Assembly: GCF_002355335.1 (NCBI RefSeq)
Contig: NZ_AP014946.1
Coordinates: forward strand, 1,689,501-1,753,500
Length of the DNA stretch: 64,000 nt
Direction of reading: 5' to 3'
From: Variibacter gotjawalensis
GTDB lineage: Bacteria > Pseudomonadota > Alphaproteobacteria > Rhizobiales > Xanthobacteraceae
In this document: positions 30,398-46,642 of the stretch, piece by piece
Layout of the letters: every line of letters begins with the position of its first letter
Position numbering within the stretch: the stretch's first letter is position 1
The notes under the pieces: generated by a model
Database searches by the model: none
Told to the model about the DNA's origin: nothing
The model's input: only the letters and a program-made list of their open reading frames with translations
Made by a program: the position numbers and the translations under genes

Positions 30398-30430
30398 ACG
30401 GAACGTTTCCCGATCTTGTTTTGATTGGTC

Positions 30431-31669: not shown

Positions 31670-31755
31670 TGGGCTCCGGTCCTGGACTTCTTGACGATAC
31701 GTCTGCCATGTTGCGCGCGTCGCGCCAAGCAGGGCGTTTCGTCACGGAAAACCGC

Positions 31756-32139
31756 ATGGAAATCGATCGTCCGGATGTCGTCGCGGAAGTAGAGGCCGCG
31801 TTCGCGCGCTATGAGGCGGCGTTGGTCGCCAACGATACCGCAGCACTCGACGCACTGTTCCATCCGGATGCGCGCACGATCCGTTACGGCATCGGCGAAA
31901 ACCTCTACGGCATCGATGAGATCAGAGCGTTTCGGACCGCGCGCTCCCCGGTTGGTCTCGCGCGCCGTCTCGACCGCACGCAGATCACGGCCTATGGCAA
32001 CGATCTCGCCATCGCGGCGACGCTGTTCTACCGCGACAGCATACCCGGCAAGGTCGGGCGCCAGATGCAGACGTGGGCGCGCTTTGCGGACGGCTGGCGT
32101 GTCGTTGCCGCGCATGTGAGCGTGATCGACGCGAAGTAA
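31756..32139 (+). CDS. HpxZ/AtzH-like DUF3225 protein (SnoaL fold)
   Basis: A 127-residue NTF2-fold protein of the AtzH/HpxZ type. The block EAAFARYEAALVANDTAALD, then LFHPDARTIRYGIGENLYGI, is very characteristic. HpxZ proteins accompany oxalurate/oxamate catabolism, and AtzH accompanies the carboxybiuret amidase AtzE. It is divergent from the ureido hydrolase gene and next to the hydantoinase gene. ATG 31756 is preferred (GGAAAA upstream). Its exact reaction is not established from sequence. Confidence 0.85.
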   Translation: MEIDRPDVVAEVEAAFARYEAALVANDTAALDALFHPDARTIRYGIGENLYGIDEIRAFRTARSPVGLARRLDRTQITAYGNDLAIAATLFYRDSIPGKVGRQMQTWARFADGWRVVAAHVSVIDAK

Positions 32140-32168
32140 TCGCTCGGCGATTGAAATTGGGCTCTCTC

Positions 32169-32313
32169 CGTCATGGTGAGGAGCCGCTACGGCGTAGCCG
32201 ATAGCGGCGTCTCGAACCACGACGGCCAATGCGATGCCGCTAGCTCCCGGGCCGTCGTCCTTCGAGACGCATCGGCGTCGGCTTCGCCGACCGCGATGCT
32301 CCTCAGGATGACG
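32169..32313. repeat. Palindromic intergenic repeat, family C copy 1
   Basis: Starts CGTCATGGTGAGGAGC and ends GCTCCTCAGGATGACG, with internal CGTCTCGAACC and CCTTCGAGACGC arms, giving two nested hairpins. Related arms occur at 42914-42955 and 56990-57124. It fills most of the 190-bp gap between the HpxZ-like and hydantoinase genes. Confidence 0.8.
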
Positions 32314-32329
32314 GATTAAGGTGCGTCGC

Positions 32330-33754: not shown

Positions 33755-33883
33755 TCTGAGGGCCCTCAAACACTTTGAAACGGAAGCTGGAGTGTGCCAC
33801 CTCTAGCAAAGGTGCCGGGGACACAATACGACAAAGCGACGCCCGGCAAACAGGGCAGCGCCAAAGGACAGGGCCAGGGAACC

Positions 33884-34942
33884 GTGAACGCGTCCGAACT
33901 CGATACTCCCGCCGTCACGATCGATCTCGATGTGGTCGACCGCAATATCCGGCGCGTACAGGAGCAACTGGACGCGTTCGGCGTCGCCAACCGGCCGCAT
34001 ATCAAGACGCACAAAATCCCTTGGCTGGCTGAGCGCCAGCGCGCCGCCGGAGCCAAAGGCATAACGTGCCAGAAGATAGGCGAGGCCGAAGTCTTCGCCG
34101 ATGCCGGCTTCGACGACATCATGCTCACCTTCAACATCTTGGGTGACGCCAAGACCGAGCGCCTCGCCGCGCTGGCGCGCCGGCTGAAAAAGCTGACCGT
34201 GGTGCTCGACAATGACGTCGTCGCGCGCGGACTGTCGGAGGCCGGCAAGCGCCACGACGTCGATTTCCGTTTCCTGATCGAATGCGACACCGGCTTTCAC
34301 CGCAACGGCGTGCAGACGCCGCAGGAAGCGCTCGATCTTGCGCAGGCCGCGCTTACGATGCCGCGCCTGCAGTTCGACGGCCTGATGACCTATCCGAAAG
34401 GCAACCTCGACAAGCAGCGCGATTTCTTCCAGCGCTCAGTCCAGCTGTTCGGCGGCGCCGGGATTCCGCTGCCGGTGATTTCGTCCGGCGGCTCCGCCAC
34501 GGTGCCGAATGTCGGCGAACTCCCGATGGTCACCGAGCATCGCGCCGGCACATACATCTACAACGATCGCATGATGGTCGCGGCCGGCGTTGCGACGTGG
34601 GACGATTGCGCGATGCGCATCCGCGCGACCGTCGTCAGTCGCCCGACCGACGACCGTGCAATCCTCGATACGGGATCGAAGGTACTCACCGCCGATCTCG
34701 GCGGGCTCACCGGCTACGGCCGCATCGTCGAATATCCGGACGCTGTGATCGATCGGCTCTCCGAAGAACACGGCATGGTCGATCTGTCCCGCGCGGTGGA
34801 GCGGCCGAAGATCGGCGAGATTGTCCACATCATTCCGAACCACACTTGCGTGGTGACGAACATGTTCGACGAAGTCTACGCCGTGCGCGAAGGCAAAGTC
34901 GAAGCCGTCATGCCGGTCGCGGCGCGCGGAAAGGTGCGCTGA
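33884..34942 (+). CDS. D-threonine aldolase / 3-hydroxy-D-aspartate aldolase-like PLP enzyme
   Basis: A 352-residue fold-type III PLP enzyme (alanine-racemase-like barrel, DSD1 family). The PLP Lys is K41 in RPHIKTHKIP, and the C-terminal metal motif PNHTC provides the His/Cys pair typical of D-threonine aldolases and 3-hydroxyaspartate aldolases. The GTG at 33884 follows AGGGA and begins the conserved ELDTPAVTIDLDVVDRN block; the open frame further upstream has low-complexity Gly/Gln residues and is less likely. It overlaps the TetR gene by one base (TGATG), so both are co-expressed. Confidence 0.86.
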   Translation: MNASELDTPAVTIDLDVVDRNIRRVQEQLDAFGVANRPHIKTHKIPWLAERQRAAGAKGITCQKIGEAEVFADAGFDDIMLTFNILGDAKTERLAALARRLKKLTVVLDNDVVARGLSEAGKRHDVDFRFLIECDTGFHRNGVQTPQEALDLAQAALTMPRLQFDGLMTYPKGNLDKQRDFFQRSVQLFGGAGIPLPVISSGGSATVPNVGELPMVTEHRAGTYIYNDRMMVAAGVATWDDCAMRIRATVVSRPTDDRAILDTGSKVLTADLGGLTGYGRIVEYPDAVIDRLSEEHGMVDLSRAVERPKIGEIVHIIPNHTCVVTNMFDEVYAVREGKVEAVMPVAARGKVR

Positions 34943-35601
34943 TGGATGCACCGACGCCGCCGGATCGTAAACGCACGGCGGTGACGCGCGATCCCGAGCG
35001 CACGCGCCGATCGATCCTCGATGCGGCGACTGTCGAGTTCACGGCGAAGGGCCTGAACGGCGCGCGCGTCGACGATATCGCGGCGCGCGCGGGCGCCAAC
35101 AAGCGCATGATCTACCACTACTTCGGCGACAAAGAGGGGCTTTACCTCGCGGCGCTGGAAGAGACCTATGTCGCGATCCGCGCTGCCGAAATTCAACTGA
35201 AATTCACCGAGCGCGACCCGGTCGAAGGCATTCGCGAGCTCATCCACTTCACGTGGCGCTATTTCGTCGAGCATCCCGAATTCCTCAGCATGCTCGGCAC
35301 CGAAAACCTGCATCGGGCGCGCTTCCTCCGGCAGTCGAAGCGCATCCGCGAACTGCATTCGCCGCTGATCGGCATGCTGTCGGACTTGCTGACGCGCGGC
35401 GCGGCCGCAGGCACGTTCCGCCCGAACGTCGATCCGGTGCAGCTTTACATTTCGATCGCCGGCCTCGGCTTTTTCTACATGTCGAACCGCCACACGCTGT
35501 CGACGATCTTCGGCCGCGAGCTCGACGCCACCGACGCGCTTACCGAACGCGGCGACCACATCGCCGACGTGATCTTGAGTTATCTCCAGCGAAAGCCGTA
35601 G
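34942..35601 (+). CDS. TetR-family transcriptional regulator
   Basis: A 219-residue TetR regulator. The N-terminal helix-turn-helix is at about residues 20-66 (RRSILDAATVEFTAKGLNGA, RVDDIAARAGANKRMIYHYF), followed by an all-helical ligand domain with FTWRYFVEHPEFLSMLG, resembling the RutR/YcdC-like TetR_C class. It is translationally coupled to the aldolase gene. A TetR-like palindrome lies 770 bp downstream in front of the Gfo/Idh operon, so that operon may be its target. Confidence 0.9.
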   Translation: MDAPTPPDRKRTAVTRDPERTRRSILDAATVEFTAKGLNGARVDDIAARAGANKRMIYHYFGDKEGLYLAALEETYVAIRAAEIQLKFTERDPVEGIRELIHFTWRYFVEHPEFLSMLGTENLHRARFLRQSKRIRELHSPLIGMLSDLLTRGAAAGTFRPNVDPVQLYISIAGLGFFYMSNRHTLSTIFGRELDATDALTERGDHIADVILSYLQRKP

Positions 35602-35607
35602 AACGCG

Positions 35608-36240
35608 TCAGCGTCGCGCTTCGGTCGCCATGCGCACGGCGAGGGCGGCCAGCACCGTTCCCATCAGCCAGCGCTGCACGACGATCCACTTCGGCCGCGT
35701 CACGAGGAACGCCGCGATCGAGCCTGCCGCGATGGCGATGATTGCATTCACCGAGACGCTGATTGCGATCTGTACCGAGCCGAGAACGAGCGCCTGCGTC
35801 AGCACGCTGCCGTGCTCCGGCGTGATGAACTGCGGAAGCAGCGAAAGATACATCACGGCGATCTTCGGATTGAGCAGATTGGTCAGAAAACCCATCATGA
35901 AGAGCTTGCGCGGACTATCGGCCGGCAGGTCGCGCACCTGAAACGGCGAGCGTCCGCCCGGGCGCACCGCCTGCCACGCGAGCCAGAGCAAATAAATCGC
36001 ACCGCCGAAGCGGAGCGCGTCATACGCATACGGAATTGCGAGTACGATGGCCGTGATGCCGAAGGCCGCGCAGAACATGTAGAAGACGAACCCGAGCGCG
36101 ACGCCGCCGAGCGAGATGAGCCCCGCCAGACGCCCCTGACAGATGGAGCGCGAGATCAGGTAGATCATGTTCGGCCCGGGCGTCAGCACCATGCCGAGCG
36201 CGATCAGTGCGAAGGCAGCGAGACTGGCGAAATCCGGCAT
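35608..36240 (-). CDS. LysE/RhtB-family amino-acid exporter
   Basis: A 210-residue inner-membrane translocator with about six helices. The opening FALIALGMVLTPGPNMIYLI carries the LTPGPN family motif, and GFLTNLLNPKIAVMYLSLLP is the second conserved block. LysE-family proteins export amino acids or homoserine-lactone-like molecules. The ATG at 36240 was chosen over a longer frame that reads upstream regulatory DNA. The gene is convergent with TetR (6-bp gap) and divergent from the Gfo/Idh operon. Confidence 0.9.
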   Translation of the reverse strand: MPDFASLAAFALIALGMVLTPGPNMIYLISRSICQGRLAGLISLGGVALGFVFYMFCAAFGITAIVLAIPYAYDALRFGGAIYLLWLAWQAVRPGGRSPFQVRDLPADSPRKLFMMGFLTNLLNPKIAVMYLSLLPQFITPEHGSVLTQALVLGSVQIAISVSVNAIIAIAAGSIAAFLVTRPKWIVVQRWLMGTVLAALAVRMATEARR

Positions 36241-36371
36241 GGCGAACTCCAAAACGCGGGGTGCGCGCTGTCTAACTCTCGAACCGCCCGGCGACAAGTG
36301 ACGAGAGCGTTGGTAGCATCCGATCCGCGCTGCAATTTCCGCGCTTGACTCTGGTCGCGCTCTCCTCCACT

Positions 36372-36389
36372 AGTAACCAGTCAGTTACT
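36372..36389. promoter_or_regulatory. Probable TetR-type operator
   Basis: AGTAAC-CAGTCA-GTTACT is a perfect 6-bp inverted repeat separated by 6 bases, in the 202-bp divergent region between the LysE and Gfo/Idh genes, 54 bp before the Gfo/Idh start. The form (TAAC...GTTA) resembles sites bound by many TetR regulators. Its owner is most likely the TetR encoded at 34942-35601. Confidence 0.5.
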
Positions 36390-36442
36390 TAAGCCATGCG
36401 GCATGCTCGATAAGAGGCGTGCCCCGCGGGAGGAGAAGCGAA

Positions 36443-37597
36443 GTGGCGACGAAGCGTCTCGGCATCATCATGCACGGCATCACCGGCCGCATGGGGCTCA
36501 ATCAGCATCTCGTGCGATCGATCGTGGCGATCCGCCAGCAGGGCGGCGTCGTGCTGCCGAACGGCGACCGCGTGATGCCGGACCCGATCCTCGTCGGCCG
36601 CAACGCGGAAAAGATCGCGGCTCTCGGCAAGCAATACGGCATCGAACGCACGACGACCGATCTCAATGCTGCGCTTGCCAACAAGAACGACACGCTGTTT
36701 TTCGATGCCGCAACGACGCAGATGCGCGCCGAATTGCTCACGCGCGCGATCGAAGCTGGCAAGGACGTCTACTGCGAGAAACCTATCGCGGACGATCTCT
36801 CGAAAGCGCTCGCGGTCGCCAAGCTAGCGAAGAAGAACAAGATCAAGAACGGCGTCGTGCAGGACAAGCTCTCGCTGCCTGGTCTCCGCAAGATCGCGAT
36901 GCTCAACGAGTCCGGCTTCTTCGGAAAAATCCTCTCGGTGCGCGGCGAGTTCGGTTACTGGGTGTTCGAAGGCGATTGGGGCCAGCCCGCACAACGCCCG
37001 AGCTGGAATTATCGCCTGAAAGACGGCGGCGGCATCATCCTCGACATGCTGTGCCACTGGCGTTACGTGCTCGACAATCTGTTCGGCAACGTGAAGGCCG
37101 TGAGCTGTCTCGGCGCGACGCATATTCCAAAGCGCGTTGACGAGAACGGCAAAACCTACACGGCTGACGCAGACGATGCGGCTTATGCGACGTTCGAGCT
37201 TGAAGGCGGCGTCATCGCGCAGCTCAACTCGTCGTGGGCCGTGCGCGTGCGCCGCGACGATCTCGTCACCTTCCAAGTTGACGGCACGCATGGCTCGGCC
37301 GTCGCGGGTCTTACGCGTTGCTACACGCAGCATCGCGTGAATACGCCGCGCCCTGTGTGGAATCCGGACGTTCCGCAGACGATGAACTTCCTCAATCAGT
37401 GGGAAGAGGTGCCGGATAACGTCACGTACGAGAACGGCTTCAAGCTGCAGTGGGAGGATTTCATCCGACACATGTTCGCGGGCACGCCGTGGAAGTACGA
37501 CTTGCTGGAAGGTGCGAAGGGTGTTCAGCTTGCCGAGCTCGGCCTCGAAAGCTGGAAGAAGCGCCGCTGGCTCGACGTGCCGGCTCTGAAAATCTGA
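36443..37597 (+). CDS. Gfo/Idh/MocA-family oxidoreductase
   Basis: A 384-residue NAD(P)-dependent dehydrogenase. The N-terminal Rossmann opening is LGIIMHGITGRMGLN, followed by the substrate-domain motif DVYCEKPIADDL (EKP catalytic Lys) and a C-terminal alpha/beta domain with DGGGIILDMLCHW. GTG 36443 is preceded by GGGAGGAG at correct spacing. It is the first gene of a six-gene operon; relatives oxidise hydroxyl groups of sugars, inositols or sugar acids. The natural substrate cannot be read from sequence. Confidence 0.88.
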   Translation: MATKRLGIIMHGITGRMGLNQHLVRSIVAIRQQGGVVLPNGDRVMPDPILVGRNAEKIAALGKQYGIERTTTDLNAALANKNDTLFFDAATTQMRAELLTRAIEAGKDVYCEKPIADDLSKALAVAKLAKKNKIKNGVVQDKLSLPGLRKIAMLNESGFFGKILSVRGEFGYWVFEGDWGQPAQRPSWNYRLKDGGGIILDMLCHWRYVLDNLFGNVKAVSCLGATHIPKRVDENGKTYTADADDAAYATFELEGGVIAQLNSSWAVRVRRDDLVTFQVDGTHGSAVAGLTRCYTQHRVNTPRPVWNPDVPQTMNFLNQWEEVPDNVTYENGFKLQWEDFIRHMFAGTPWKYDLLEGAKGVQLAELGLESWKKRRWLDVPALKI

Positions 37598-37608
37598 GGG
37601 ACAAACAG

Positions 37609-38775
37609 ATGGCGACGATCTCTCTGCCGACCACGAGCGGCCGCTTCGAGAATTACACGACGGGCGAACCGATCAAGCTGCCGCCGAAGGGCAAGCCGCC
37701 GGTGTTTAACCGCGTTGCATATGGCGCAGCGCATGTCGTCGCCGATCCGCTTGCCGACAACGATCCGTGGCTCGATGTCGCGATCGATTGGGACAAGACG
37801 ATCGATTTCCGTCACTACATGTGGGACCTCGGTCTTGGCGTTGCCGAGGCGATGGATACCGCGCAACGCGGCATGGGCCTCGATTGGAACGGCGCGAAGG
37901 AACTCGTCCGCCGCGCGCTCGAAGCCGCGAAATCGCGCGACGGCGCGCTGATCGCAAGCGGCGTCGGCACCGAGCACCTGACGCCCGGTCCGGACGTGAA
38001 GATCGACGACGTCATCCGCGCTTACGAAGAACAGGTCGAGGCGATCGAAGGCATGGGTGGCCGCATCATCCTGATGGCGAGCCGTGCGCTGGTGAAAGCC
38101 GCGAAGTCGCCGGAAGACTACGCCAAGGTTTACGGCCGCATTCTGCGTCAGGTGAAGGAGCCCGTGATTCTGCACTGGCTCGGCGAAATGTTCGACCCGG
38201 CACTCGAAGGCTATTGGGGCTCGCCCGATCATAACGCCGCGATGGATATCTGCCTTGGCATCATCGAGGAGCACGCTGCGAAGATCGACGGCATCAAGAT
38301 CTCGCTGCTGTCGAAGGAGAAGGAGATCTCCATGCGCCGCCGTCTGCCGGCGAGCGTGAAGATGTATACGGGCGACGACTTCAACTACGCCGAACTCATC
38401 GCGGGCGATGAAGAAGGCTACTCGCACGCACTGCTCGGCATTTTCGACGGCATCGCCCCGGCGGCGTCCGAAGGTCTCGCGCGCCTCGCCAAGGGCGACG
38501 TGCAGGGCTTCCACGGCGTGCTCGAGCCGACTGTGCCGCTCTCGCGTCACATCTTCAAAGCGCCGACGCGCTTCTACAAAACCGGCCTCGTGTTCCTCGC
38601 GTGGCTCAACGGCAAGCAGGACCATTTCACGATGGTCGGCGGCCAGCAGAGCGCGCGTTCGCTGCAGCATCTCGCAGAACTCTTCCGCCTCGCCGACAAG
38701 GCGCGCGTGCTGCACGATCCGGATCTTGCGGCGGGCCGCATGAAGCAACTGATGGCGGTGCACGGCTACGCCTGA
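37609..38775 (+). CDS. DUF993 / dihydrodipicolinate-synthase-like protein
   Basis: A 388-residue protein of the DUF993 family, distantly related to the DHDPS/aldolase TIM barrels. A 25-residue N-terminal arm precedes PPVFNRVAYGAAHVVADPLA, then WDKTIDFRHYMWDLGLGVAE, GGRIILMASRALVKAAKSPE, and GIKISLLSKEKEISMRRRLP, where the Lys in DGIKIS sits where DHDPS-like enzymes carry the Schiff-base Lys. No member has a function I can cite. The gene starts 12 bp after the Gfo/Idh gene. Confidence 0.82.
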   Translation: MATISLPTTSGRFENYTTGEPIKLPPKGKPPVFNRVAYGAAHVVADPLADNDPWLDVAIDWDKTIDFRHYMWDLGLGVAEAMDTAQRGMGLDWNGAKELVRRALEAAKSRDGALIASGVGTEHLTPGPDVKIDDVIRAYEEQVEAIEGMGGRIILMASRALVKAAKSPEDYAKVYGRILRQVKEPVILHWLGEMFDPALEGYWGSPDHNAAMDICLGIIEEHAAKIDGIKISLLSKEKEISMRRRLPASVKMYTGDDFNYAELIAGDEEGYSHALLGIFDGIAPAASEGLARLAKGDVQGFHGVLEPTVPLSRHIFKAPTRFYKTGLVFLAWLNGKQDHFTMVGGQQSARSLQHLAELFRLADKARVLHDPDLAAGRMKQLMAVHGYA

Positions 38776-38820
38776 CCGCCAAATCAAAAAAGACATAACG
38801 AAAAAACGGGAGGATCATCG

Positions 38821-39825
38821 ATGAAGAAACTAGTGCTCGCGGCCTCGGCCGTGCTCGCGCTGACCCAAACGGCCGGCGCGCAAAATTATCCCTGGAAGCC
38901 TGAAAGGCCGGTGACGATCATCGTGCCGTGGGCAGCCGGGGGTTCGACCGACCAAGTGACGCGCGTCGCCGCAGCGGAAGTGGAGAAGAAGCTCGGCCAG
39001 AAGATTGTCATCGTGAACCAGCCCGGCGCTTCGGGCTCGATCGGCACGCGCAACGCGCTGCAGGCGCCGAAGGACGGCTACACCTGGACGGCGGGCGCCG
39101 CAAAAGACATCGGCACCTATGTCGTGAGCGGCTTGCTCGACACGAAGATTACCGACTGGCGTCTCTATCTCAGCGTCATCAACGTGTCGGTGCTCGGCGC
39201 CAACAACAACACGCCGTACAAATCCGCCGCCGATCTCGTCGCCGCAATGAAGGCGAAGCCGGGTCACGTCTCGGTCGCGACTGCCGGCATCAACTCGTCG
39301 GGCCATTCCGGTATCGAGTCGTTCACGCGCGCGCTCGGCATCACCTACAAGCACGTCTCCTATGACGGCGGAAATCCGGCCGTGATCGCGACGGTCGCGG
39401 GTGAGACGGAGTTGACGACACAGCTCGCTGTCGAGCAGGCCAACATGATCCGCGCCAAGCGTCTGAAAGCGCTCGCAGTGCTCTCCGACAAGCCGCTCGA
39501 ACTCGAGGGCTACGGCACGATCCCGGCCGTGACGAAGGAAATCCCGGCCTACAAGCCGGAAGCGAATTACTTCGGCATCTTCGTTCCGAAGGACTCGCCG
39601 CCGGAAGTCATCAAGACGCTGGACATGATCTGGGCCGACCTCGGTAAGAACGAAGCGCTGAAGAAGTATGCGACGCAGAACGGCGCGATCCTCGATCCGT
39701 CGTTTGGCGACGATGCTCTGAAGGCGGCGATGCCGGCGATCACGGCTGCGGCTTGGCTGCTGCACGAAGGCGGCAAGGCGAAGGTCTCGCCCGACACCGT
39801 CGGCATTCCGAAGCCGACGAATTGA
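38821..39825 (+). CDS. Bug/TctC-family substrate-binding protein
   Basis: A 334-residue periplasmic solute receptor of the tripartite tricarboxylate transporter (TTT) system. A Sec signal (KKLVLAASAVLALTQTAGA, cut before QNYPW) is followed by the Bug hallmark PERPVTIIVPWAAGGSTD and VNQPGASGSIGTRNAL. It pairs with TctB and TctA downstream, giving a complete TTT importer. Bug ligands are mostly carboxylates, though some bind sugars or cyclic amides; identity here is unknown. Preceded by GGGAGG. Confidence 0.92.
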   Translation: MKKLVLAASAVLALTQTAGAQNYPWKPERPVTIIVPWAAGGSTDQVTRVAAAEVEKKLGQKIVIVNQPGASGSIGTRNALQAPKDGYTWTAGAAKDIGTYVVSGLLDTKITDWRLYLSVINVSVLGANNNTPYKSAADLVAAMKAKPGHVSVATAGINSSGHSGIESFTRALGITYKHVSYDGGNPAVIATVAGETELTTQLAVEQANMIRAKRLKALAVLSDKPLELEGYGTIPAVTKEIPAYKPEANYFGIFVPKDSPPEVIKTLDMIWADLGKNEALKKYATQNGAILDPSFGDDALKAAMPAITAAAWLLHEGGKAKVSPDTVGIPKPTN

Positions 39826-39857
39826 GTCGTTACGCGGCATGCCGCGCATTCGGCGCT

Positions 39858-39982
39858 CCACCTCTCCCTTTGGGAGAGGTCGGATTGCGCAGCAATCCGG
39901 GTGAGGGGTTAAGGCCTATCGTTAGCCACCATCCCCTCACCCGCCGCGCTTCGCGCGTCGACCTCTCCCCATGGGAGAGGTG
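39858..39982. repeat. Palindromic repeat inside operon, family D copy 1
   Basis: Starts CCACCTCTCCCTTTGGGAGA and ends CCTCTCCCCATGGGAGAGGTG, with GGGTGAGGGG and CCCCTCACCC inner arms, so it can fold as two outer hairpins plus a long stem. It lies between the Bug and tctB genes, inside the operon. A relative lies at 47561-47705. Confidence 0.8.
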
Positions 39983-40013
39983 ATCCGAGCAAGACCGAAC
40001 GCTGAAGTTTGCA

Positions 40014-40514
40014 ATGACCGACCACGCTTCATCTCCGACCCCGAGCTTCTGGCACGCCGATCGTATCGGCGGGCTGATCTGGGTCATTCTCGGCGGCGCC
40101 ATCGTCTACGGCTCCTGGACGATGGATCGTCTCGAAGGCCGCATCGAAACGCCGCTCGCCGCGCCGGGTCTGGTGCCGGGCTTGCTCGGCCTCGGACTGA
40201 TCATCTTCGGTGCGATCCTGCTCGCCCGGCGCATCCCGATTGGCGCGAGCGATGCAGAGGAAGCGTCGTGGCTGCGTGTCGTGGTCAGCTGGGCGCTCTG
40301 CTTCACCTATGCCGGTTTGCTACTCGGCCGCGGCGTTCCCTATATCGCGTTGACCGCTGCGTTTCTCTTCGCGCATCTCGTGCTGATCGGCGAACAGACG
40401 CTCGGCAAATGGCCCGAGAAGCGGCGGCTGATCACGATCATCTTGGTCGTCGCGATCGTGCCGGTGCTGGTCGGCTCGATCTTCCAATACGTTTTCCTCG
40501 TACGGCTCCCGTGA
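40014..40514 (+). CDS. tctB: TctB, small membrane subunit of TTT importer
   Basis: A 166-residue four-helix membrane protein of the TctB family, the small and poorly conserved subunit of tripartite tricarboxylate transporters. Helices: GGLIWVILGGAIVYGSWTM; PGLVPGLLGLGLIIFGAILL; VVVSWALCFTYAGLLLGRGV; LITIILVVAIVPVLVGSIFQ. It stands between the receptor and TctA genes, 10 bp before tctA, which settles the assignment. Confidence 0.88.
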   Translation: MTDHASSPTPSFWHADRIGGLIWVILGGAIVYGSWTMDRLEGRIETPLAAPGLVPGLLGLGLIIFGAILLARRIPIGASDAEEASWLRVVVSWALCFTYAGLLLGRGVPYIALTAAFLFAHLVLIGEQTLGKWPEKRRLITIILVVAIVPVLVGSIFQYVFLVRLP

Positions 40515-40524
40515 GGCGATAGGC

Positions 40525-42063
40525 ATGCTTCAGGGATTGGAAATGCTTGGGGCTTCGATCGGCGATTTCCTCACGCCGACGTCGATCGCACTCGCCTTCG
40601 GCGCCACGCTGTTCGGCATCCTCGCCGGCTGCCTTCCGGGCCTGAGCGCAACACTCGTCATCACACTGCTGACGACGCTGACGCTTAAGATGCCGTCGAA
40701 CCTCGCGATCCTCGTTCTGGTCTGCGCCTACAACGGCGCGATCTACGGCGGCTCGCGCACCGCGATCCTGCTCAACATTCCGGGCACCGCCGCCAACGCT
40801 GCCGCATGCCTCGACGGTTACCAGCTCGCACGCCAAGGCCAAGCCGGCCGCGCGATGGGCATCGCCACCACCGGCTCGGTGATCGGCACGCTGTTCGGCA
40901 TTCTCTGCCTCGCGATCTTCACGCCGCTGCTCGGCGAAGTCGCGCTGTCCTTCGGCGCCTACGAATTTTTCTGGCTCGCGCTGCTTGGCGTCGTCACTTC
41001 GGGCAACATCGTCGGCGCCGATCCGATCAAGGGTTGGATCGCGGGTTTCCTCGGGCTGTTCGTCGCCTGCATCGGGCAGGAGGGCATGTACGCTTACGAG
41101 CGCTTCTCCTTCGGCAATGCCGATCTTGCGGGCGGCTTTCAACTGATCCCGGTTCTCGTCGGCGCCTTTGGTTTCTCCGAAGTGCTCACCGTGATGAGCG
41201 AGCGCCTTGCGCGCCCGAAGATCACGGAGTTTGGTTCGGCGTGGCCGAAGCCGAGCGACATCATACAATATTGGCGCACGATGCTGCGCTCCGGCATCAT
41301 CGGCGTGTGGATCGGCATTCTTCCGGGCGTCGGCGAGGACATGGCCGCATGGTCGTCCTACGCCGCCGCGAAGCGTCTCTCGAAGGAGCCGGAAAAATAC
41401 GGCAAGGGCTCGATCGAAGGCCTGATGGCCGCCGAAACCGGCGATAACGCGTCCGTCCCGGGCGGCATCATTCCGGCGCTCGCGCTCGCAATTCCGGGCT
41501 CTGCGCCATGCGCCGTGTTGCTCGCCGCGATGATCATTCACGGCGTTCAGCCCGGCCCGATGCTGATGGTCGAGCAACCGAAGTTTGTCTACGACGTCGT
41601 CGTGATGCTGCTGTTCGCCACGATCGGCATCCTGTTTTTTGGCCTGTTCTTCATCAAGCCGCTGCTGAAGATCATTCAGATCCCCCGCTCGATCTTGATG
41701 CCGATCATCTTCGTGCTCTGCGTGATGGGATCCTACGCGCTGTCGTCGCGCATGTTCGATGTCCAAACGATGCTCGGCTTCGGCACACTGATCTTCGTCA
41801 TGCGTCGTTACGGTTATCCGGCCGCGCCTTTCGTGCTTGGTCTCGTGCTTGGCGATATTCTCGATAAGAATTTGCGCCGCGCGCTCATTCTGAGTGACGG
41901 CGATATGCTGCCGTTTATCTCGCGCCCGCTCAGCGCGATCCTCGCGATATTGGTCGTATGGACCTTTATCACCAACGTGCAGTCGATCAACGATTGGCAG
42001 ACGCGCCAGCGCGCGCGATTGACAGAATGGATTTTCTCGCTGCTGCGCCGCAAGCAGGCCTGA
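40525..42063 (+). CDS. tctA: TctA, large membrane subunit of TTT importer
   Basis: A 512-residue permease with about 12 helices. Family motifs include GCLPGLSATLVITLLTTLTL, YNGAIYGGSRTAILLNIPGT (the TctA signature), and GILPGVGEDMAAWSSYAAAK followed by EAETGDNASVPGGIIPAL-like sequence, the repeat of the first motif. It drives uptake of the ligand delivered by the Bug protein. The gene follows tctB by 10 bp and precedes the isomerase by 12 bp. Confidence 0.95.
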   Translation: MLQGLEMLGASIGDFLTPTSIALAFGATLFGILAGCLPGLSATLVITLLTTLTLKMPSNLAILVLVCAYNGAIYGGSRTAILLNIPGTAANAAACLDGYQLARQGQAGRAMGIATTGSVIGTLFGILCLAIFTPLLGEVALSFGAYEFFWLALLGVVTSGNIVGADPIKGWIAGFLGLFVACIGQEGMYAYERFSFGNADLAGGFQLIPVLVGAFGFSEVLTVMSERLARPKITEFGSAWPKPSDIIQYWRTMLRSGIIGVWIGILPGVGEDMAAWSSYAAAKRLSKEPEKYGKGSIEGLMAAETGDNASVPGGIIPALALAIPGSAPCAVLLAAMIIHGVQPGPMLMVEQPKFVYDVVVMLLFATIGILFFGLFFIKPLLKIIQIPRSILMPIIFVLCVMGSYALSSRMFDVQTMLGFGTLIFVMRRYGYPAAPFVLGLVLGDILDKNLRRALILSDGDMLPFISRPLSAILAILVVWTFITNVQSINDWQTRQRARLTEWIFSLLRRKQA

Positions 42064-42075
42064 TCGGAGATCTCA

Positions 42076-42903
42076 GTGAAGACCGAAGGATTGTCGATCA
42101 ATCTCGCGACCGTGCGCGAACAGTGGAACCTGCGCGAGGCCGTCGAAGCCTGCGCGCGCCAAGGCATTCGGGCGATCGATCCCTGGCGCGATCAAGTCGC
42201 CAAGATCGGCCTTGAAGAGTCGGCGCGCGTCATCCGCGATCACGGCATGCAGGTGACGGGCTATTGTCGCGGCGGCATGTTCACGGCGGCGGATGACGCC
42301 GGCCGCAAAGCTGCGATCGAGGAGAATATCCGCGCCATCGACGAAGCCGTCGCGCTTGGCGCCGATTGTCTCGTCTTCGTCGTCGGCGGCCTGCCGCAAG
42401 GCTCGCGCGATATCGCGGGCGCGCGCAGCCAAGTGCGCGACGGGCTCGGCGCCGTGCTCAATCACGCGCGAAAGGTGAAGATGCCGCTCGCGATCGAGCC
42501 GCTGCATCCGATGTATGCGGCGGACCGCGCCTGCGTGAACACACTCGGCCAGTCGCTCGATCTCGCCGACGAGCTAGGGCAGGGCGTCGGCGTCGCGATC
42601 GATGTCTACCACGTGTGGTGGGACCCGGATGTCGAGCGCGAAATCGCGCGTGCCGGCAAAGCGAAGCAGATTTTCGCCTATCACATTTGCGATTGGCTGG
42701 TGCCGACGAAGGATTTACTGCTCGACCGCGGCATGATGGGCGACGGGGTGATCGACCTAAAGCGCCTCCACGGCCTCATCACGCAGGCCGGTTTTCACGG
42801 GCCGCAGGAGGTCGAGATTTTTTCTGCGAACGATTGGTGGAAGCGCCCGGGCGACGACGTCATCCGCACCTGCATCGAGCGGTATAACGCGGTTTGTCTC
42901 TGA
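42076..42903 (+). CDS. TIM-barrel sugar-phosphate isomerase/epimerase-like enzyme
   Basis: A 275-residue AP-endonuclease-2-fold (IolE/hydroxypyruvate-isomerase/xylose-isomerase-like) enzyme. Typical metal-site acids are seen in AIEPLHPMYAADRA (Glu), GVAIDVYHVWWDPD (Asp and His), and QEVEIFSANDWW (Glu). GTG 42076 has CGGAGA upstream. As the last gene of the Gfo/Idh-DUF993-TTT operon it probably isomerises or epimerises an intermediate made by the dehydrogenase or DUF993 enzyme. Confidence 0.87.
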   Translation: MKTEGLSINLATVREQWNLREAVEACARQGIRAIDPWRDQVAKIGLEESARVIRDHGMQVTGYCRGGMFTAADDAGRKAAIEENIRAIDEAVALGADCLVFVVGGLPQGSRDIAGARSQVRDGLGAVLNHARKVKMPLAIEPLHPMYAADRACVNTLGQSLDLADELGQGVGVAIDVYHVWWDPDVEREIARAGKAKQIFAYHICDWLVPTKDLLLDRGMMGDGVIDLKRLHGLITQAGFHGPQEVEIFSANDWWKRPGDDVIRTCIERYNAVCL

Positions 42904-42913
42904 GGCCCCTCGC

Positions 42914-42955
42914 CGTCATCCTGACGCGACCTCACGGTCGCTCCTCAGGATGACG
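42914..42955. repeat. Palindromic intergenic repeat, family C copy 2 (short)
   Basis: CGTCATCCTGA at the left and TCAGGATGACG at the right form a perfect 11-bp stem around a GCGACC/GGTCGC inner stem. It sits between the ends of convergent operons and may act as a bidirectional terminator. Confidence 0.8.
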
Positions 42956-42973
42956 ATAGAGGTGGAGCGTTCG

Positions 42974-43948
42974 CTAAGCCGCCACGACTTCCTTCACCTT
43001 GCGGCAGCGGGCGAAACGGCCCGGCCCGAGCGGCTCATTCGGAATGACGCCTTCCGTGCACAGCGCATCGCCATACTTGCAGCGCGGCGCGAAGGAGCAG
43101 CCGTCCGGCAGCTTGTCGAGCTGCGGCGGCGCGCCCGGAATGGCCTCGAGCTTCGTGCCCTTCGGCACACCATGGATCGTCGACGACAAAAGCCCGCGCG
43201 TATACGGATGCGCCGGGTGGCTGACGACATCGCCGAGGCCACCGAGTTCGATGATCTTGCCCGCATACATCACGGCGATGCGGTCGGAGATTTCCACCGC
43301 GACGCCGATGTCATGCGTGACGAAGATCATCGTCATGCCGAGTTCGCGCTGCAGCTCACGCAGCAGCAACAAAATTTGGATCTGCACCGTGGCGTCGAGC
43401 GCGGTCGTCGGCTCGTCGGCGAGAAGAATCTTCGGATTGCATGAGAGCGCCAGCGCGATCATCGCACGCTGCCGCATGCCGCCCGACATTTCGTGCGGAT
43501 ATGCATCGAGGCGGCGCTTCGCCGAGGGAATGCGCACGTTCTCGAGACATTCGAGTGCGCGCTTGCGCCCTTCCGCATGGCTTTTGCCCTGATGCCGCGC
43601 AACCGTCTCGGCGATCTGATCGCCGATCGTGTAAACGGGATCGAGCGCGAGCATCGGCTCCTGGAAAATCATCGACACTGTCGTGCCGCGAAAGTCTTCG
43701 AGTTCGGGCTCCGACATCGCCAGAACGTCGCGGCCATCGACGGTGATGGATCCGTCGATCTTGGTGCGATGCGGCGGATGCGTGCGCAGCAGCGCCCGCA
43801 ACGTCACGCTCTTGCCGGAGCCGGACTCGCCGAGCAGCCCGACGACTTCGCCGGGCGCGATCGAGAGGTCGACGCCGTTCAGAGCGTGAACGATGCGATT
43901 GCCGCTGAAGCGGACGTGCAGGTTTTTGATGTCGATCATCGGTGTCAT
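42974..43948 (-). CDS. Dpp/Opp-type ABC ATPase (DppD)
   Basis: A 324-residue ATPase of oligopeptide-type importers: Walker A GESGSGKS, signature MSGGMRQRAMIALAL, Walker B ILLADEPTTALD, and a C-terminal oligo_HPY extension with four Cys-like region (CSFAPRCKYGDALC). ATG 43948 has a GGAG site upstream. It is the last gene of the operon and is separated from its partner ATPase by an amidase and a small gene, an unusual order. Confidence 0.93.
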   Translation of the reverse strand: MTPMIDIKNLHVRFSGNRIVHALNGVDLSIAPGEVVGLLGESGSGKSVTLRALLRTHPPHRTKIDGSITVDGRDVLAMSEPELEDFRGTTVSMIFQEPMLALDPVYTIGDQIAETVARHQGKSHAEGRKRALECLENVRIPSAKRRLDAYPHEMSGGMRQRAMIALALSCNPKILLADEPTTALDATVQIQILLLLRELQRELGMTMIFVTHDIGVAVEISDRIAVMYAGKIIELGGLGDVVSHPAHPYTRGLLSSTIHGVPKGTKLEAIPGAPPQLDKLPDGCSFAPRCKYGDALCTEGVIPNEPLGPGRFARCRKVKEVVAA

Positions 43949-43977
43949 GTTCAAACTCCGCACGCCGCTCGCTTCCG

Positions 43978-45384
43978 TCACGAGGGCATTGGCGCCTTTC
44001 TGTGAAAGTCCGTCTCGTCCTGGAATGCCCGGCCGAACGCGATGGTCGTCTCGTCGCCGTACGGGCGTCCCATGATCTGCAGGCCGATCGGCATGCCGGC
44101 AGCCGTGTGTGCGACCGGAATCACCGTGACCGGAATGCCGAGGTAATTCACCGGACGCATGAAGCGCGTGACTTGCTGGATGATCGCTTCGGCGTCGAGC
44201 GCGCCGCCGACATCGGTCTCCGCGATCGTCGGCGCGACAGCGCGGGACGCCGGCGCGAGGATGACATCGGCTTTGCCCATCGCGGCGAGATGCTGCGCGA
44301 TCGCGGCGCTGCGCCAGCGCAGCGCTTCGAGATACTGCACGCCCGTATAACCGAGGCCGTTCTCGAGACGATTGCGCACCTGCGCGCCGTAGTCGTCCGG
44401 CCGCGTGCGCAGCCAGTGTGCATGCGTGGCGGCGGCTTCGACCGCGAGCGTCATCACGGCGGCGGCCGAGACCATCATCTGGTCGGGCAGCTTAACCTTG
44501 ACGACTTTGGCGCCGAGTTTCTTGAACGTCTTGATCGTTTGATCGAGCGCTTTGGCGACATCGCTTTCGAGATCGTCGACGTAGAAGTTGCTCGGCACGC
44601 CGATCGTCAGGCCCTTGATCGAGCGCTTCGCCGCCTTCGTGTTCCACGCGGGTGCCGCGAGCGTCGTCGGATCGAGTGGATCCGGCCCCGAGATGATCGA
44701 CTGAATGAGCCCGCCGTCTTTCGCCGACAGGGCCAGCGGGCCGACCGTATCGAGCGAGAATGACAGCGGCATCGCGTTGGCGCGGCTGACGCGGCTCCAC
44801 GTCGGCTTCACGCCGGTGACGCCGCAGAAGTGCGCGGGCAAACGGATCGAGCCGCCGGTGTCGGAGCCGAGCGCGACATACGTCGTGCGCGCTGCGACCG
44901 CCGTCGCCGAACCGGAGGACGAGCCGCCCGTGATGCGCTCCTTGTCCCAGGCATTGCGTGCCGGGCCGAGATGTTCGTTGTGGCCGGTTGGGCCATACGC
45001 AAACTCGACCATATGCAGCGCGCCGACATGGATCGCACCGGCTGCTTCGAGACGCTGCACCGCCGTCGCGGTTTCTTTCGGCCGATAGCCTTTGCGGATT
45101 TTCGAACCGCATTCGGCGAGTTTCCCCGCCATATAATACATGTCCTTGTGCGCCATCGGCACGCCATGCAGCGGACCGACGTCCTTGCTGCGCGCGAGCT
45201 CGCGATCGGCTGCTTTCGCGGCTTTCAGTGCGCCTTCTTCGTCGACGCGGACATAGGCATTCGTGTGCGGCTGCCAGCGCTTGATACGCGCGAGCATCGC
45301 CTTGGTGACTTCGACGGACGAAATTTTCTTCTTCCGGATCGCGCTCGCGACCTCGGTGAGGGTCATGTTCGACGGATCGATCAT
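43978..45384 (-). CDS. Amidase-signature hydrolase in Dpp-type operon
   Basis: A 468-residue amidase. The triad is readable: K80 (PMAHKDMYYMAG), GGSSSGSA at 153-160 with the cis-Ser, and nucleophile S179 in GSDTGGSIRLPA. Length and layout fit AtzE/GatA-type enzymes without the allophanate hydrolase C-terminal domain. Its start overlaps the stop of a 66-residue gene (ATGA), as AtzE genes follow AtzG. It lies inside an ABC importer operon, so it presumably hydrolyses the imported amide in the cytoplasm. Confidence 0.9.
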   Translation of the reverse strand: MIDPSNMTLTEVASAIRKKKISSVEVTKAMLARIKRWQPHTNAYVRVDEEGALKAAKAADRELARSKDVGPLHGVPMAHKDMYYMAGKLAECGSKIRKGYRPKETATAVQRLEAAGAIHVGALHMVEFAYGPTGHNEHLGPARNAWDKERITGGSSSGSATAVAARTTYVALGSDTGGSIRLPAHFCGVTGVKPTWSRVSRANAMPLSFSLDTVGPLALSAKDGGLIQSIISGPDPLDPTTLAAPAWNTKAAKRSIKGLTIGVPSNFYVDDLESDVAKALDQTIKTFKKLGAKVVKVKLPDQMMVSAAAVMTLAVEAAATHAHWLRTRPDDYGAQVRNRLENGLGYTGVQYLEALRWRSAAIAQHLAAMGKADVILAPASRAVAPTIAETDVGGALDAEAIIQQVTRFMRPVNYLGIPVTVIPVAHTAAGMPIGLQIMGRPYGDETTIAFGRAFQDETDFHRKAPMPS

Positions 45385-45581
45385 TGTTTGATCTCCCGCA
45401 TCGAAACGACGACGAATGTCGACGGCTCGACTTCCATCTCGAGCTTCATCTTCTCTTCGTGGAAGCGCGTCACGGTCGGCGTGATGGCGCGTGCGATGCG
45501 CGCGGCCGCATCGGGCCGCAACGGAATGTGGTCGGCTGCCGCCATCTCGCTGATGCGTGCGGCCTTAACGTCGTCTGGCAT
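45381..45581 (-). CDS. 66-residue protein, possible AtzG-like partner of amidase
   Basis: Encodes MPDDVKAARISEMAAADHIP through VVVSMREIKQ. It overlaps the amidase start by 4 bases and begins 5 bp after the dppF stop, so it is part of the operon and translationally coupled. Its size and place before an amidase gene match AtzG (DUF4089), the small subunit that stabilises AtzE; sequence identity to AtzG could not be confirmed by eye. The frame is open further upstream within dppF but ATG 45581 fits the operon spacing. Confidence 0.65.
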   Translation of the reverse strand: MPDDVKAARISEMAAADHIPLRPDAAARIARAITPTVTRFHEEKMKLEMEVEPSTFVVVSMREIKQ

Positions 45582-45586
45582 TGCTC

Positions 45587-46642
45587 TTAGACTCCCGGCG
45601 TCGGTGGTTTCGCCTTCGTGTGACCGGAGGCTGGGTTCACCATGTGGCACGCCGTAAAGTGCATCTCGTTGCCGGTCTCGGCAAGCGGGGGTTTGGTCGA
45701 TGAGCAGACGGCTTCCGCGAACGGGCAGCGCGTATGGAAGCGGCATCCCGAAGGCGGATCGATCGGGTTCGGCGGATCGCCGGTGATCGGCGCTTCTTTC
45801 GTCCGATTGGCCGGATCGAGCGACGGCATCGCGGCGAGCAGCGCGCGCGTATAGGGGTGCCGCGCATCTTTGAACAGCGTCTCGGCTGGGCCGGATTCGA
45901 CCACCTCGCCGAGATACATCACCATGATGCGGTCGGAGATGAAACGCACGACGTTGAGATCGTGCGAAATGAAGATGTAGGTGAGTCCCAGCGCTTCCTT
46001 GAGCTCGATCAGCAGATTGAGCACCTGCGCTTCGACCGATTTGTCGAGCGCCGATACGGCTTCGTCGAGCAGGACGAGACGCGGCTGCAGCGCGAGCGCG
46101 CGCGCGATGTTGATGCGCTGACGCTGACCACCCGAGAGTTCGTGCGGATAACGCCCGGCGAAATATTTCGGCTCGAGGCCGACACGGCGCAGAAGATCGT
46201 GCGCGCGTGCACGCGCTTGTTCGGCCGGCAATCCGTGGATGCGGGGCGCGAACGAAATCGAATCTTCGATGGTGAGGCGCGGGTTCAGCGACGCATAGCT
46301 GTCCTGAAACACCATCTGCACCTGGCGCCGCAATTCGCGCAGCGTCAGCTTGCCGCCGACCGCTTCGCCGTCGAGCAGGATTTCGCCTTTGTCCGGCGTG
46401 ATCAGATCGATCATCAGCCGCGCGGTCGTCGACTTGCCGCAGCCGGATTCGCCGACGATGCCGAGCACTTCGCCTTTCGCGACGTTGAAGCTAACGTCGT
46501 CGACGGCGCGGACGACGCCAGCTTTATTGCGGAATGTGCCGCCGACTTTGAAGTGCTTGGTCAGGCTGCGGACTTCCAGCATCGGCTGTGCCGGGCCGCC
46601 GCGGTCCGTCATTTCGGCGTTATAGGCGTCAGCCACGGACAT
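45587..46642 (-). CDS. Dpp/Opp-type ABC ATPase (DppF)
   Basis: A 351-residue ATPase with Walker A GESGCGKST, signature LSGGQRQRINIARAL, Walker B LVLLDEAVSALD (Glu-Ala in place of Glu-Pro, common in DppF) and the oligo_HPY C-terminal region (GCRFHTRCPFAEAVC). ATG 46642 has AGGAG eight bases upstream and overlaps the permease gene by 14 bases; an internal ATG at 46612 is an alternative. It pairs with the DppD encoded at 42974-43948. Confidence 0.92.
   Translation of the reverse strand: MSVADAYNAEMTDRGGPAQPMLEVRSLTKHFKVGGTFRNKAGVVRAVDDVSFNVAKGEVLGIVGESGCGKSTTARLMIDLITPDKGEILLDGEAVGGKLTLRELRRQVQMVFQDSYASLNPRLTIEDSISFAPRIHGLPAEQARARAHDLLRRVGLEPKYFAGRYPHELSGGQRQRINIARALALQPRLVLLDEAVSALDKSVEAQVLNLLIELKEALGLTYIFISHDLNVVRFISDRIMVMYLGEVVESGPAETLFKDARHPYTRALLAAMPSLDPANRTKEAPITGDPPNPIDPPSGCRFHTRCPFAEAVCSSTKPPLAETGNEMHFTACHMVNPASGHTKAKPPTPGV

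Follow-up and report, generated by a model that had tools for sequence, protein, structure and literature searches.

What pathway is served by an operon which combines a complete importer, a dehydrogenase and an isomerase with a protein of the DUF993 family? This is the question raised by positions 36443–42903 of the window (the whole 64 kb stretch of DNA analysed here). The initial annotation could cite no reaction for DUF993, and in the open-access literature which we searched for DUF993, PF06187, SMc04130 and 4DNH, we likewise found neither a reaction nor an assignment. What computation does show is a set of genes in conserved association, a varying importer, a recurrent palindrome, and the fold and conserved residues of the enzymes.

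Gene content and organisation

Profile searches confirmed the positions and identities of all six plus-strand genes originally proposed, with family scores exceeding the cut-offs (gene starts and gaps were taken directly from the DNA). The first gene encodes a Gfo/Idh/MocA-type NAD(P)-dependent dehydrogenase (36443–37597, GTG start; PF22725, 82.3 bits with a cut-off of 27, with PF02894 and PF01408 also over cut-off), and is followed after 11 bp by the DUF993 gene (37609–38775, ATG start; PF06187, E 1.6e-186), which is the single DUF993 copy in the 4.59 Mb genome. The importer begins 45 bp further on with the TctC (Bug-type) periplasmic binding protein (38821–39825; PF03401, 104.2 bits, cut-off 27) and continues, after a gap of 188 bp containing two inverted repeats, with the TctB small membrane subunit (40014–40514; PF07331, 42.4 bits, cut-off 29.1) and, 10 bp later, the TctA large membrane subunit (40525–42063; PF01970, 448.8 bits, cut-off 28.9), and as all three score above their family cut-offs it is complete, as had been claimed. 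The last gene lies 12 bp after TctA and encodes a xylose-isomerase-like TIM barrel (AP_endonuc_2; 42076–42903, GTG start; PF01261, 131.9 bits, cut-off 31.1). Purine-rich ribosome-binding stretches were recognised by eye before the dehydrogenase (GGAGGAG), TctC (GGGAGGA) and isomerase (CGGAG) genes, with weaker ones before DUF993, TctB and TctA. A sigma-70 promoter scan returned no sites where 1.3 were expected, and terminator-like sites numbered two with 6.6 expected, so that neither scan was informative.

Conservation of the enzyme set

The recurrence of Gfo/Idh and isomerase genes beside DUF993, on which the initial annotation had staked its pathway, was found in a set of 132 fetched loci, in which families were defined as single-linkage clusters of genes predicted by a codon-usage caller. 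DUF993 was present in 128 of these (the caller missed it in L069, L077, L186 and L195), the isomerase family in 116, Gfo in 113 and TetR in 90; this set includes the duplicates L057/L122 and L075/L139, and both L111 and L112 are Sinorhizobium meliloti pSymA. Of the 128 loci in which the caller found DUF993, 107 also contained both the Gfo and isomerase families, and in 90 these were on the same strand and within 500 bp of it.

The association was also seen in 99 same-family genomes, of which 36 had a Gfo orthologue (560 bits or more) as well as full-length DUF993, five DUF993 only, four Gfo only and 54 neither (Fisher p 3.9e-17, uncorrected for kinship), with the corresponding numbers for isomerase orthologues (at least 320 bits) being 34, 7, 8 and 50. 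Fragmentary rows are omitted from these tables, namely three for Gfo (two from G071 and one from G055), two for the isomerase (G029 and G055) and those for DUF993 in G035, G055 and G029; the fragments from G055, one of those from G071 and that from G029 do adjoin DUF993. G071, with Gfo fragments at contig ends, is one of the five DUF993 genomes having no Gfo orthologue at the cut-off. DUF993 was adjoined by 35 of the 40 Gfo orthologues and by none of the 13 lower-scoring full Gfo homologues. Three genes upstream of the operon, encoding a hydantoinase (32330–33769), a D-threonine-aldolase-like protein (33794–34942) and a LysE protein (35608–36297), were rejected as cassette partners, since at E 1e-25 none of them was found in any of the 142 loci searched.

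The operon had been described as self-contained, which overlooks both the regulatory elements described below and the enolase-superfamily enzyme and second isomerase found inside the same operon in relatives (L120 and L052). The enolase-superfamily gene occurs in 61 of the 132 loci, including 60 of the 128 with a called DUF993 gene. In the source genome, the enolase and second isomerase are located 260 kb from the operon beside an MFS transporter (L217), and as the palindrome is absent there, we make no claim that this locus shares the regulon. We also sought remnants of both genes at 30001–46000 of the window using 80 proteins, and the only two matches at E 0.001 fell within the hydantoinase and isomerase genes.

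DUF993 does not appear to be an unavoidable core of the cassette, since five other genomes (G036, G052, G078, G099 and G247) have clusters that keep the dehydrogenase, isomerase, enolase and second isomerase without it. (A further genome, G328, has a Gfo orthologue but is without a match to DUF993, and was not assigned to this group because no gene was called in its locus L227.) Thus either the pathway may have a way around the DUF993 step, or an equivalent function may be provided by the enolase and second isomerase. DUF993 and the extra pair might then be alternative branches after a shared oxidation, with species differing in the stereoisomers or related substrates they use, and the many clusters, including that in the window, with DUF993 but neither enolase nor second isomerase would fit this, as would the variation in importers. 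We consider this somewhat unlikely, as the joint presence of DUF993 and enolase in the 60 loci noted above indicates that they are not mutually exclusive. We note that such branching would be compatible with the pathway that we prefer below.

The TetR regulator and a recurrent palindrome

The TetR-family gene (34942–35601, plus strand, start from the translation; PF00440 and PF17938, the latter with 151.8 bits) lies outside 36443–42903, with the LysE gene on the opposite strand sitting between it and the operon, and its ATG shares 1 nt with the stop codon of the gene before it. This family is a conserved partner of the cassette, being found in 90 of the fetched loci. An operator-like palindrome, GTAACCAGTCAGTTAC (GTAAC-N6-GTTAC), is located at 36373–36388, 54 bp upstream of the dehydrogenase start, and is the sole exact match in the window. 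Across the 132 related loci there were 78 exact matches, all of them intergenic, and in 38 cases Gfo followed within 400 bp downstream; by comparison, ten shuffles gave 0–1 matches and other spacers of 2–12 between GTAAC and GTTAC gave 0–3. The relaxed palindrome was absent from 42 of the 107 loci with both Gfo and isomerase, many of them from Bradyrhizobium, and when 17 Bradyrhizobium-type loci were searched for a replacement operator, none emerged (the best palindrome occurred in four). We infer from these sequence patterns that the TetR protein may bind GTAAC-N6-GTTAC as a candidate operator, and the palindrome may flag regulon members in other genomes.

Importers and the nature of the substrate

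Carboxylates are a common cargo of tripartite tricarboxylate (TTT) importers, and a carboxylated or polyhydroxylated compound had been proposed for the operon. Reading a carboxylated substrate from the importer could not be sustained, as the cassette importers are of three unrelated kinds (TTT, NMT1/TauC-type and Ugp-type ABC) which differ even among close relatives, and the importer type therefore does not identify the substrate. Importer type was labelled from genes lying no more than 8 kb from DUF993, irrespective of strand, and 44 of 125 rows had no such gene. On a DUF993 tree that was built quickly and carried long-branch warnings, parsimony gave 14 changes of type, and the types were also more clustered than chance labelling would give, with 31 changes needed for four groups and a mean of 62.8 after shuffling. 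Ugp-type genes were also found further out in two of the 20 fetched TTT loci (Devosia L144 and L147), and so the gain of an importer is not always separable from its replacement. Furthermore, the nearest solved binding-protein structures score no more than 95.1 bits with TctC, which is too distant for ligand transfer. As one enzyme set is served by three unrelated types, we would caution against deducing substrate class from the importer. The usual cargo of TTT importers would suit an ordinary uptake of a citrate-like carboxylate with unrelated enzymes located nearby by chance; this is extremely improbable, as chance adjacency is refuted by an association conserved in more than 100 loci, and the palindrome still precedes the enzyme genes in loci with a different importer.

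Predicted fold and active site of the DUF993 protein

An AlphaFold2 model of the DUF993 protein (pLDDT 85.4, pTM 0.86) could be superimposed on dihydrodipicolinate synthase (DHDPS) using VIA-align 2 with a Z score of 27.8 and an rmsd of 2.6 over 286 residues at 12% identity, and the protein is on this model predicted to have the (β/α)8 DHDPS fold. The sequence itself has no PF00701 match, with only PF06187 found at E 0.001 (the four PF00701 matches in the source genome are other genes). A homologue in the PDB is 4dnh (SMc04132; 596.9 bits, 66% identity in the structural alignment). K233 (counted from 37600, and residue 230 from the ATG) is invariant in 24 and in 30 DUF993 sequences and lies on barrel strand six (229–235 in the model), and with equivalence to the DHDPS lysine assigned by strand count, we regard it as a candidate Schiff-base lysine. 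A profile alignment also pairs K233 with the DapA lysine, although this was not significant (probability 0.4%).

The DHDPS catalytic tyrosine is located on strand 5. The fifth strand of the DUF993 model (189–194) carries an invariant H192-W193, and segment 188–200 of the window protein has no tyrosine. The GxxGE motif of pyruvate-type enzymes in this superfamily follows strand 2, and is present in the source genome's own PF00701 proteins; in DUF993 the strand at 80–83 is followed by DTAQRG (86–91), and there is no GxxGE.

DHDPS-fold enzymes also catalyse hydration, dehydration and decarboxylation, and KdgD is one enzyme of this fold with such non-aldolase chemistry. It is conceivable, though we think it quite unlikely, that DUF993 likewise uses its Schiff base for dehydration, hydration or decarboxylation rather than as an aldolase, with the route passing through a deoxy-keto intermediate. 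The shared fold and lysine would allow this, and the enolase superfamily, a member of which is added in 61 loci, includes many sugar-acid dehydratases. The missing GxxGE motif argues against it, as do neighbouring glycerate kinases, which suggest a C3 product.

Of 25 plasmid regions with annotation, 10 list such a kinase near DUF993, including four of the 11 such regions with Gfo in the same gene run, and these kinases belong to two unrelated families, PF02595 (L113, and L230 from the other context) and PF13660/PF05161 (L118, L231 and L233). A single PF13660-type query, which would miss other glycerate kinase families, matched eight of 142 loci at E 1e-25, with L063 the only non-plasmid record, and from these searches glycerate kinase appears rare outside the plasmids chosen.

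The dehydrogenase and isomerase

E112-K113-P114 (the EKP motif), D201 and H205 are conserved in an alignment of 111 dehydrogenases, and a PDB homologue (3oqb, 623.9 bits) is titled just 'Oxidoreductase'. The best NCBIfam model, levoglucosan dehydrogenase, gave 64.2 bits with a cut-off of 650, and inositol 2-dehydrogenase 62.1 bits with a cut-off of 355. In the isomerase, E141, D176, H203 and E247 are at least 97% conserved (115 rows) and are presumably a Glu-Asp-His-Glu metal site, with E141 and E247 being what we take to be the acidic pair expected of a ketose epimerase. The E141-P-L-H144 sequence is conserved to the same degree. PDB homologues 3qc0 and 3ju2 (SMc04130) score about 419 bits, and among the NCBIfam isomerase and epimerase equivalogs, including IolO and XylA, the best reached 30.5 bits with a cut-off of 300.

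These enzymes could instead act on a glycoside, with a sugar unit first oxidised by the dehydrogenase to its 3-keto form, the aglycone then released through β-elimination by the TIM barrel, and DUF993 processing the keto sugar. The levoglucosan match, the conserved E141-P-L-H144, and the presence in some cassettes of additional Gfo/Idh genes and of ABC importers of the sugar type are consistent with this, but the match is far under its cut-off, this operon has no second dehydrogenase, and the isomerase keeps the presumed epimerase pair. Oxidation and elimination of this kind are described for the levoglucosan operon (PMC7676230), which pairs a Gfo/Idh-type dehydrogenase with 'sugar phosphate isomerase' genes and in which the TIM barrel LgdB1 acts by β-elimination, and for the Agrobacterium GlycDH/OGE operon (PMC10628242), where a dehydrogenase is accompanied by TIM-barrel proteins of this type and AtOGE is the eliminating one. 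As far as these descriptions go, both known operons lack an enzyme of the DHDPS fold and finish with a reduction that gives glucose, and overall we find the glycoside route improbable.

A proposed catabolic pathway

The reading that we prefer, to which we give a probability of roughly 45%, is a TetR-controlled catabolic cassette for a polyhydroxylated compound with dehydrogenase, isomerase and DUF993 steps and a glycerate outlet; here we infer every reaction, the reaction order, the substrate and the outlet. The importer (TTT in this case) would take up the compound, one hydroxyl of which would be oxidised to a ketone by the Gfo/Idh enzyme with NAD(P), and the keto compound would then be isomerised or epimerised by the metal-dependent TIM barrel. 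The sixth-strand lysine of DUF993 may form a Schiff base with the ketone before C–C cleavage (retro-aldol), and a three-carbon product would enter central metabolism, probably via glycerate; aldol cleavage feeding glycerate is the most likely Schiff-base step for DUF993. Repression by TetR would take place at the GTAAC-N6-GTTAC site preceding the dehydrogenase gene, and would be lifted once the regulator is bound by the compound or a product. This reading is weakened by the five genomes without DUF993, by the DUF993 genomes with no Gfo (five) or isomerase (seven) orthologue at the cut-off, by the 42 loci without the palindrome, by the rarity of glycerate kinase beyond the selected plasmids, by the non-significant DapA alignment and by the other reactions of the DHDPS fold.

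The cassette is found in the Pseudomonadota, with at least one full copy in the Actinomycetota. More tentatively, it may represent an undescribed and widespread pathway whose DHDPS-fold enzyme, with its active site rebuilt and lying outside the families that use pyruvate, cleaves a polyhydroxy compound, once oxidised and isomerised, to yield a glycerate precursor, and in which the enzymes and TetR operator are kept while importers are exchanged. DUF993, an unassigned family with a solved structure (4dnh), can thereby be linked to defined partners, to a regulator and to an operator-like sequence that recurs, and its chemistry becomes testable.

Comparison with known systems

TctC, TctB and TctA are all present as in other tripartite tricarboxylate transporters, but TTT is here only one of the three importer types of the cassette. 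DUF993 shares the predicted barrel fold and sixth-strand lysine of the DHDPS/N-acetylneuraminate lyase superfamily (PF00701), and differs in its low (12%) identity, in having histidine for tyrosine on strand 5, and DTAQRG for GxxGE. The levoglucosan operon lgdA-lgdB1-lgdB2-lgdC (PMC7676230) is similar in having a dehydrogenase adjoining a TIM-barrel 'sugar phosphate isomerase', whereas its description includes no DHDPS-fold enzyme and its product is glucose. The Agrobacterium GlycDH/AtOGE operon (PMC10628242), likened here by its description, also combines a dehydrogenase with metal-dependent TIM-barrel proteins, but it has two of the latter and a second oxidoreductase, and DUF993 is not mentioned in that description.

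A further close system is S. meliloti 1021 SMc04130–SMc04133, with the same DUF993 (SMc04132) and isomerase (SMc04130) families, for which structures have been solved and no assigned function was found in the open-access literature searched; in one published table, SMc04132 is listed as an uncharacterised protein and SMc04133 as a putative oxidoreductase (PMC12542648). The S. meliloti Ak57 pSymB record (L107) has the order TetR, Gfo/Idh, DUF993, mandelate racemase and isomerase, and differs from the window in having additional Gfo/Idh genes and an ABC importer of the Ugp type. The presence of these genes in S. meliloti makes them amenable to knockouts and growth screens.

The operon and its nearest relatives

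All six genes of the plus-strand operon (Gfo/Idh dehydrogenase, DUF993 (PF06187), TctC, TctB, TctA and a xylose-isomerase-like TIM barrel) are found at 36443–42903 as initially annotated, with every Pfam score over its cut-off, and the gaps taken from the DNA (11, 45, 188, 10 and 12 bp) agree with the 10–190 bp spacing described for it. The 4,586,237-base genome has a single DUF993 gene, and the closest named relatives of its product, among the best 80 of 593 listed, share 73–76% identity and come from Pseudolabrys, Rhodopseudomonas and Xanthobacteraceae MAGs. Solved relatives of DUF993 (4dnh; SMc04132, S. meliloti), the dehydrogenase (3oqb) and the isomerase (3qc0 and 3ju2 (SMc04130)) are all structures without a named function. 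Two inverted-repeat elements, CCTCTCCC..GGGAGAGG, at 39861–39981 within the 188-bp TctC–TctB gap may be members of a dispersed intergenic repeat family.

Recurrence of the gene partnership

Among 100 same-family genomes, 44 contain DUF993, as do 25/289 in the class sample and 36/398 in the phylum sample (the samples overlap and each includes our own genome); none of 14 named controls does. Across 132 loci (40 from genomes, 12 from plasmid records and the best 80 of 593 named-genome scan matches) we counted DUF993 in 128, the isomerase in 116, the dehydrogenase in 113, TetR in 90, an ABC ATPase in 79, an enolase-superfamily protein in 61, TctC in 37, TctA in 21 and a second isomerase in 20. Dehydrogenase and isomerase were both present in 107 of the 128 DUF993 loci, and in 90 both share the strand of DUF993 and are at most 500 bp from it. 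When 99 same-family genomes were scored for full-length DUF993 and for a dehydrogenase orthologue (560 bits or more), 36 had both, five DUF993 only, four the dehydrogenase only and 54 neither (Fisher p = 3.9e-17, kinship ignored); the corresponding isomerase table was 34/7/8/50. Thirty-five of the 40 orthologues adjoin DUF993 and one more lies on another contig of the same genome, while none of 13 lower-scoring full homologues adjoins it. The gene partnership is solid, and the cassette is real and conserved.

Of the partners proposed to recur with DUF993, the dehydrogenase and isomerase did so, and the importer varies, the TctC/TctB/TctA (TTT) type being one of three. A quick tree built from 122 DUF993 proteins needs 14 parsimony changes of importer label (TTT 21, NMT1/TauC-type 38 and Ugp-type 19 rows). 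The labels are nevertheless more clustered than chance, so an importer type is kept in a lineage for some time before it changes. The 12-row clade containing the window protein (99*) mixes TTT and NMT1 cassettes (for example, loci L052 and L120 versus L053, L059 and L121, with NMT1-type genes inside the cassette in the latter three). Because importers vary between relatives, the TTT importer is no proof of a carboxylate substrate; the TctC binding protein scores at most 95 bits to any solved relative.

TetR and a recurrent palindrome

The TetR gene at 34942–35601, overlooked initially, is part of the conserved set (90/132 loci). In many relatives TetR is directly 5' of the dehydrogenase, whereas here a minus-strand LysE-type exporter gene (35608–36297) lies in between. 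TetR may be co-expressed with a D-threonine-aldolase-like gene (33794–34942) that scores 195 bits to BhcC against a cut-off of 690, since the two overlap by 1 nt at the start of TetR; at E 1e-25, none of 142 loci had a homologue of this gene beside DUF993.

The dehydrogenase is preceded by GTAACCAGTCAGTTAC (36373–36388), the sole exact GTAAC-N6-GTTAC in the window. This palindrome has 78 copies in the 132 loci, all intergenic, compared with 0–1 in ten Markov shuffles, 0–3 for other spacers and 0–1 for five control palindromes, and as a sequence fact its recurrence is very strong. A dehydrogenase gene follows within 400 bp in 38 cases, and genes downstream of the others include TetR (10), TctC (9), an NMT1 binding protein (8) and a second dihydrodipicolinate synthase (DHDPS)-like gene (7); even a relaxed form was absent from 42 of the 107 loci with both dehydrogenase and isomerase. 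The palindrome is very probably the operator of this TetR group, and the cassette is probably catabolic and TetR-regulated.

DUF993 as a probable Schiff-base enzyme

The structure model of the window DUF993 (pLDDT 85.4, pTM 0.86) matches 4dnh with Z 49.8 and DHDPS structures with Z 27.8 (rmsd 2.6 over 286 residues, 12% identity), and the fold assignment is solid. Invariant K233 (numbering starts at 37600; subtract 3 for ATG numbering) is on barrel strand six, the strand that carries the lysine of DHDPS. When its profile was aligned to those of the genome's four PF00701 proteins, K233 paired with their lysine, but the alignment was not significant. H192 on strand five occupies the place of the DHDPS tyrosine, and strand two is followed by DTAQRG instead of GxxGE. 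On this model DUF993 probably acts like a Schiff-base enzyme of the DHDPS fold, but as it fails tested features of the pyruvate-type family it should not be filed there.

Second isomerase and enolase genes

The operon had been described as self-contained, which does not hold, as the TetR gene and palindrome were missed and relatives' operons hold a second isomerase and an enolase-superfamily gene. A Pseudolabrys operon (L120) is ordered TetR–Gfo–DUF993–TctC–TctB–TctA–second isomerase–enolase–isomerase, whereas the window operon lacks the pair. In our genome a D-psicose-3-epimerase-like second isomerase and divergent enolase-superfamily gene, 50% identical to the relatives' pair, are side by side at 1463541–1465753 (L217:8039–10296), 260 kb from the operon and adjoining an MFS transporter; the palindrome is absent at this locus. 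The pair may form a branch alternative to DUF993: four same-family genomes (G036, G052, G078, where the set spans two contigs, and G099) and one of the same class (G247) combine the dehydrogenase and isomerase with the enolase and second isomerase, and nothing in these genomes matches DUF993. The co-occurrence of enolase and DUF993 in 60/128 loci counts against exclusive branches. By sequence the enolase-type protein is divergent, one member having no PDB match at E 0.001 and another weak matches only (best E 0.0002). Loci L042 and L229 contain ABC importer parts, an enolase-superfamily gene and DUF993, with the dehydrogenase and isomerase families absent from the fetched stretch.

Other contexts and a possible glycerate outlet

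In some plasmid relatives SDR and acyl-CoA dehydrogenase genes take the place of the adjacent dehydrogenase (L112, L116, L117, L200, L204), several adding CoA-transferase, enoyl-CoA hydratase, ETF and glycerate kinase, and the palindrome is found upstream of acyl-CoA dehydrogenase in L111, L112, L116 and L117. Given this second context, DUF993 chemistry probably serves more than one route. A second DHDPS-like gene adjoins the cassette in L049, L066, L071, L075 and L078, with the palindrome among these genes, and several such loci include NMT1-type ABC importer, PhyH-type dioxygenase or GNAT genes. A Streptomyces DUF993 gene (L114:8004–9191) stands immediately upstream of a gene for a type I polyketide synthase, where the family may serve biosynthesis.

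Glycerate as the pathway outlet is a lead rather than a result. Of 25 annotated plasmid regions chosen for diversity out of 147 records, three further regions being unannotated, 10 have a glycerate kinase annotated close to DUF993 (L112, L113, L118, L204–L207, L230, L231, L233). Four of these ten are among the 11 regions with the dehydrogenase in the DUF993 gene run (L107–L110, L113, L118, L199, which was confirmed separately, L203, L231–L233). Five tested kinases belong to PF02595 (L113, L230) or PF13660/PF05161 (L118, L231, L233), so two unrelated families have been recruited. Against this outlet, one PF13660-type query matched only 8/142 loci at E 1e-25, seven of them plasmid loci. Our genome has a PF13660-type kinase elsewhere (292768–294018).

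Comparison with known systems

No function assignment for DUF993, PF06187, SMc04130 or 4DNH was found in the open-access papers searched. A table in a PhaR study lists SMc04132 as an uncharacterised protein, SMc04133 as a putative oxidoreductase and SMc04135 as an ABC binding protein (PMC12542648). The cassette chemistry is a proposal to which we give slightly less than an even chance (about 0.45). The window dehydrogenase scores far under the levoglucosan and inositol model cut-offs; dehydrogenases are paired with TIM-barrel proteins in the operons described for levoglucosan (PMC7676230) and for Agrobacterium O-glycosides (PMC10628242).
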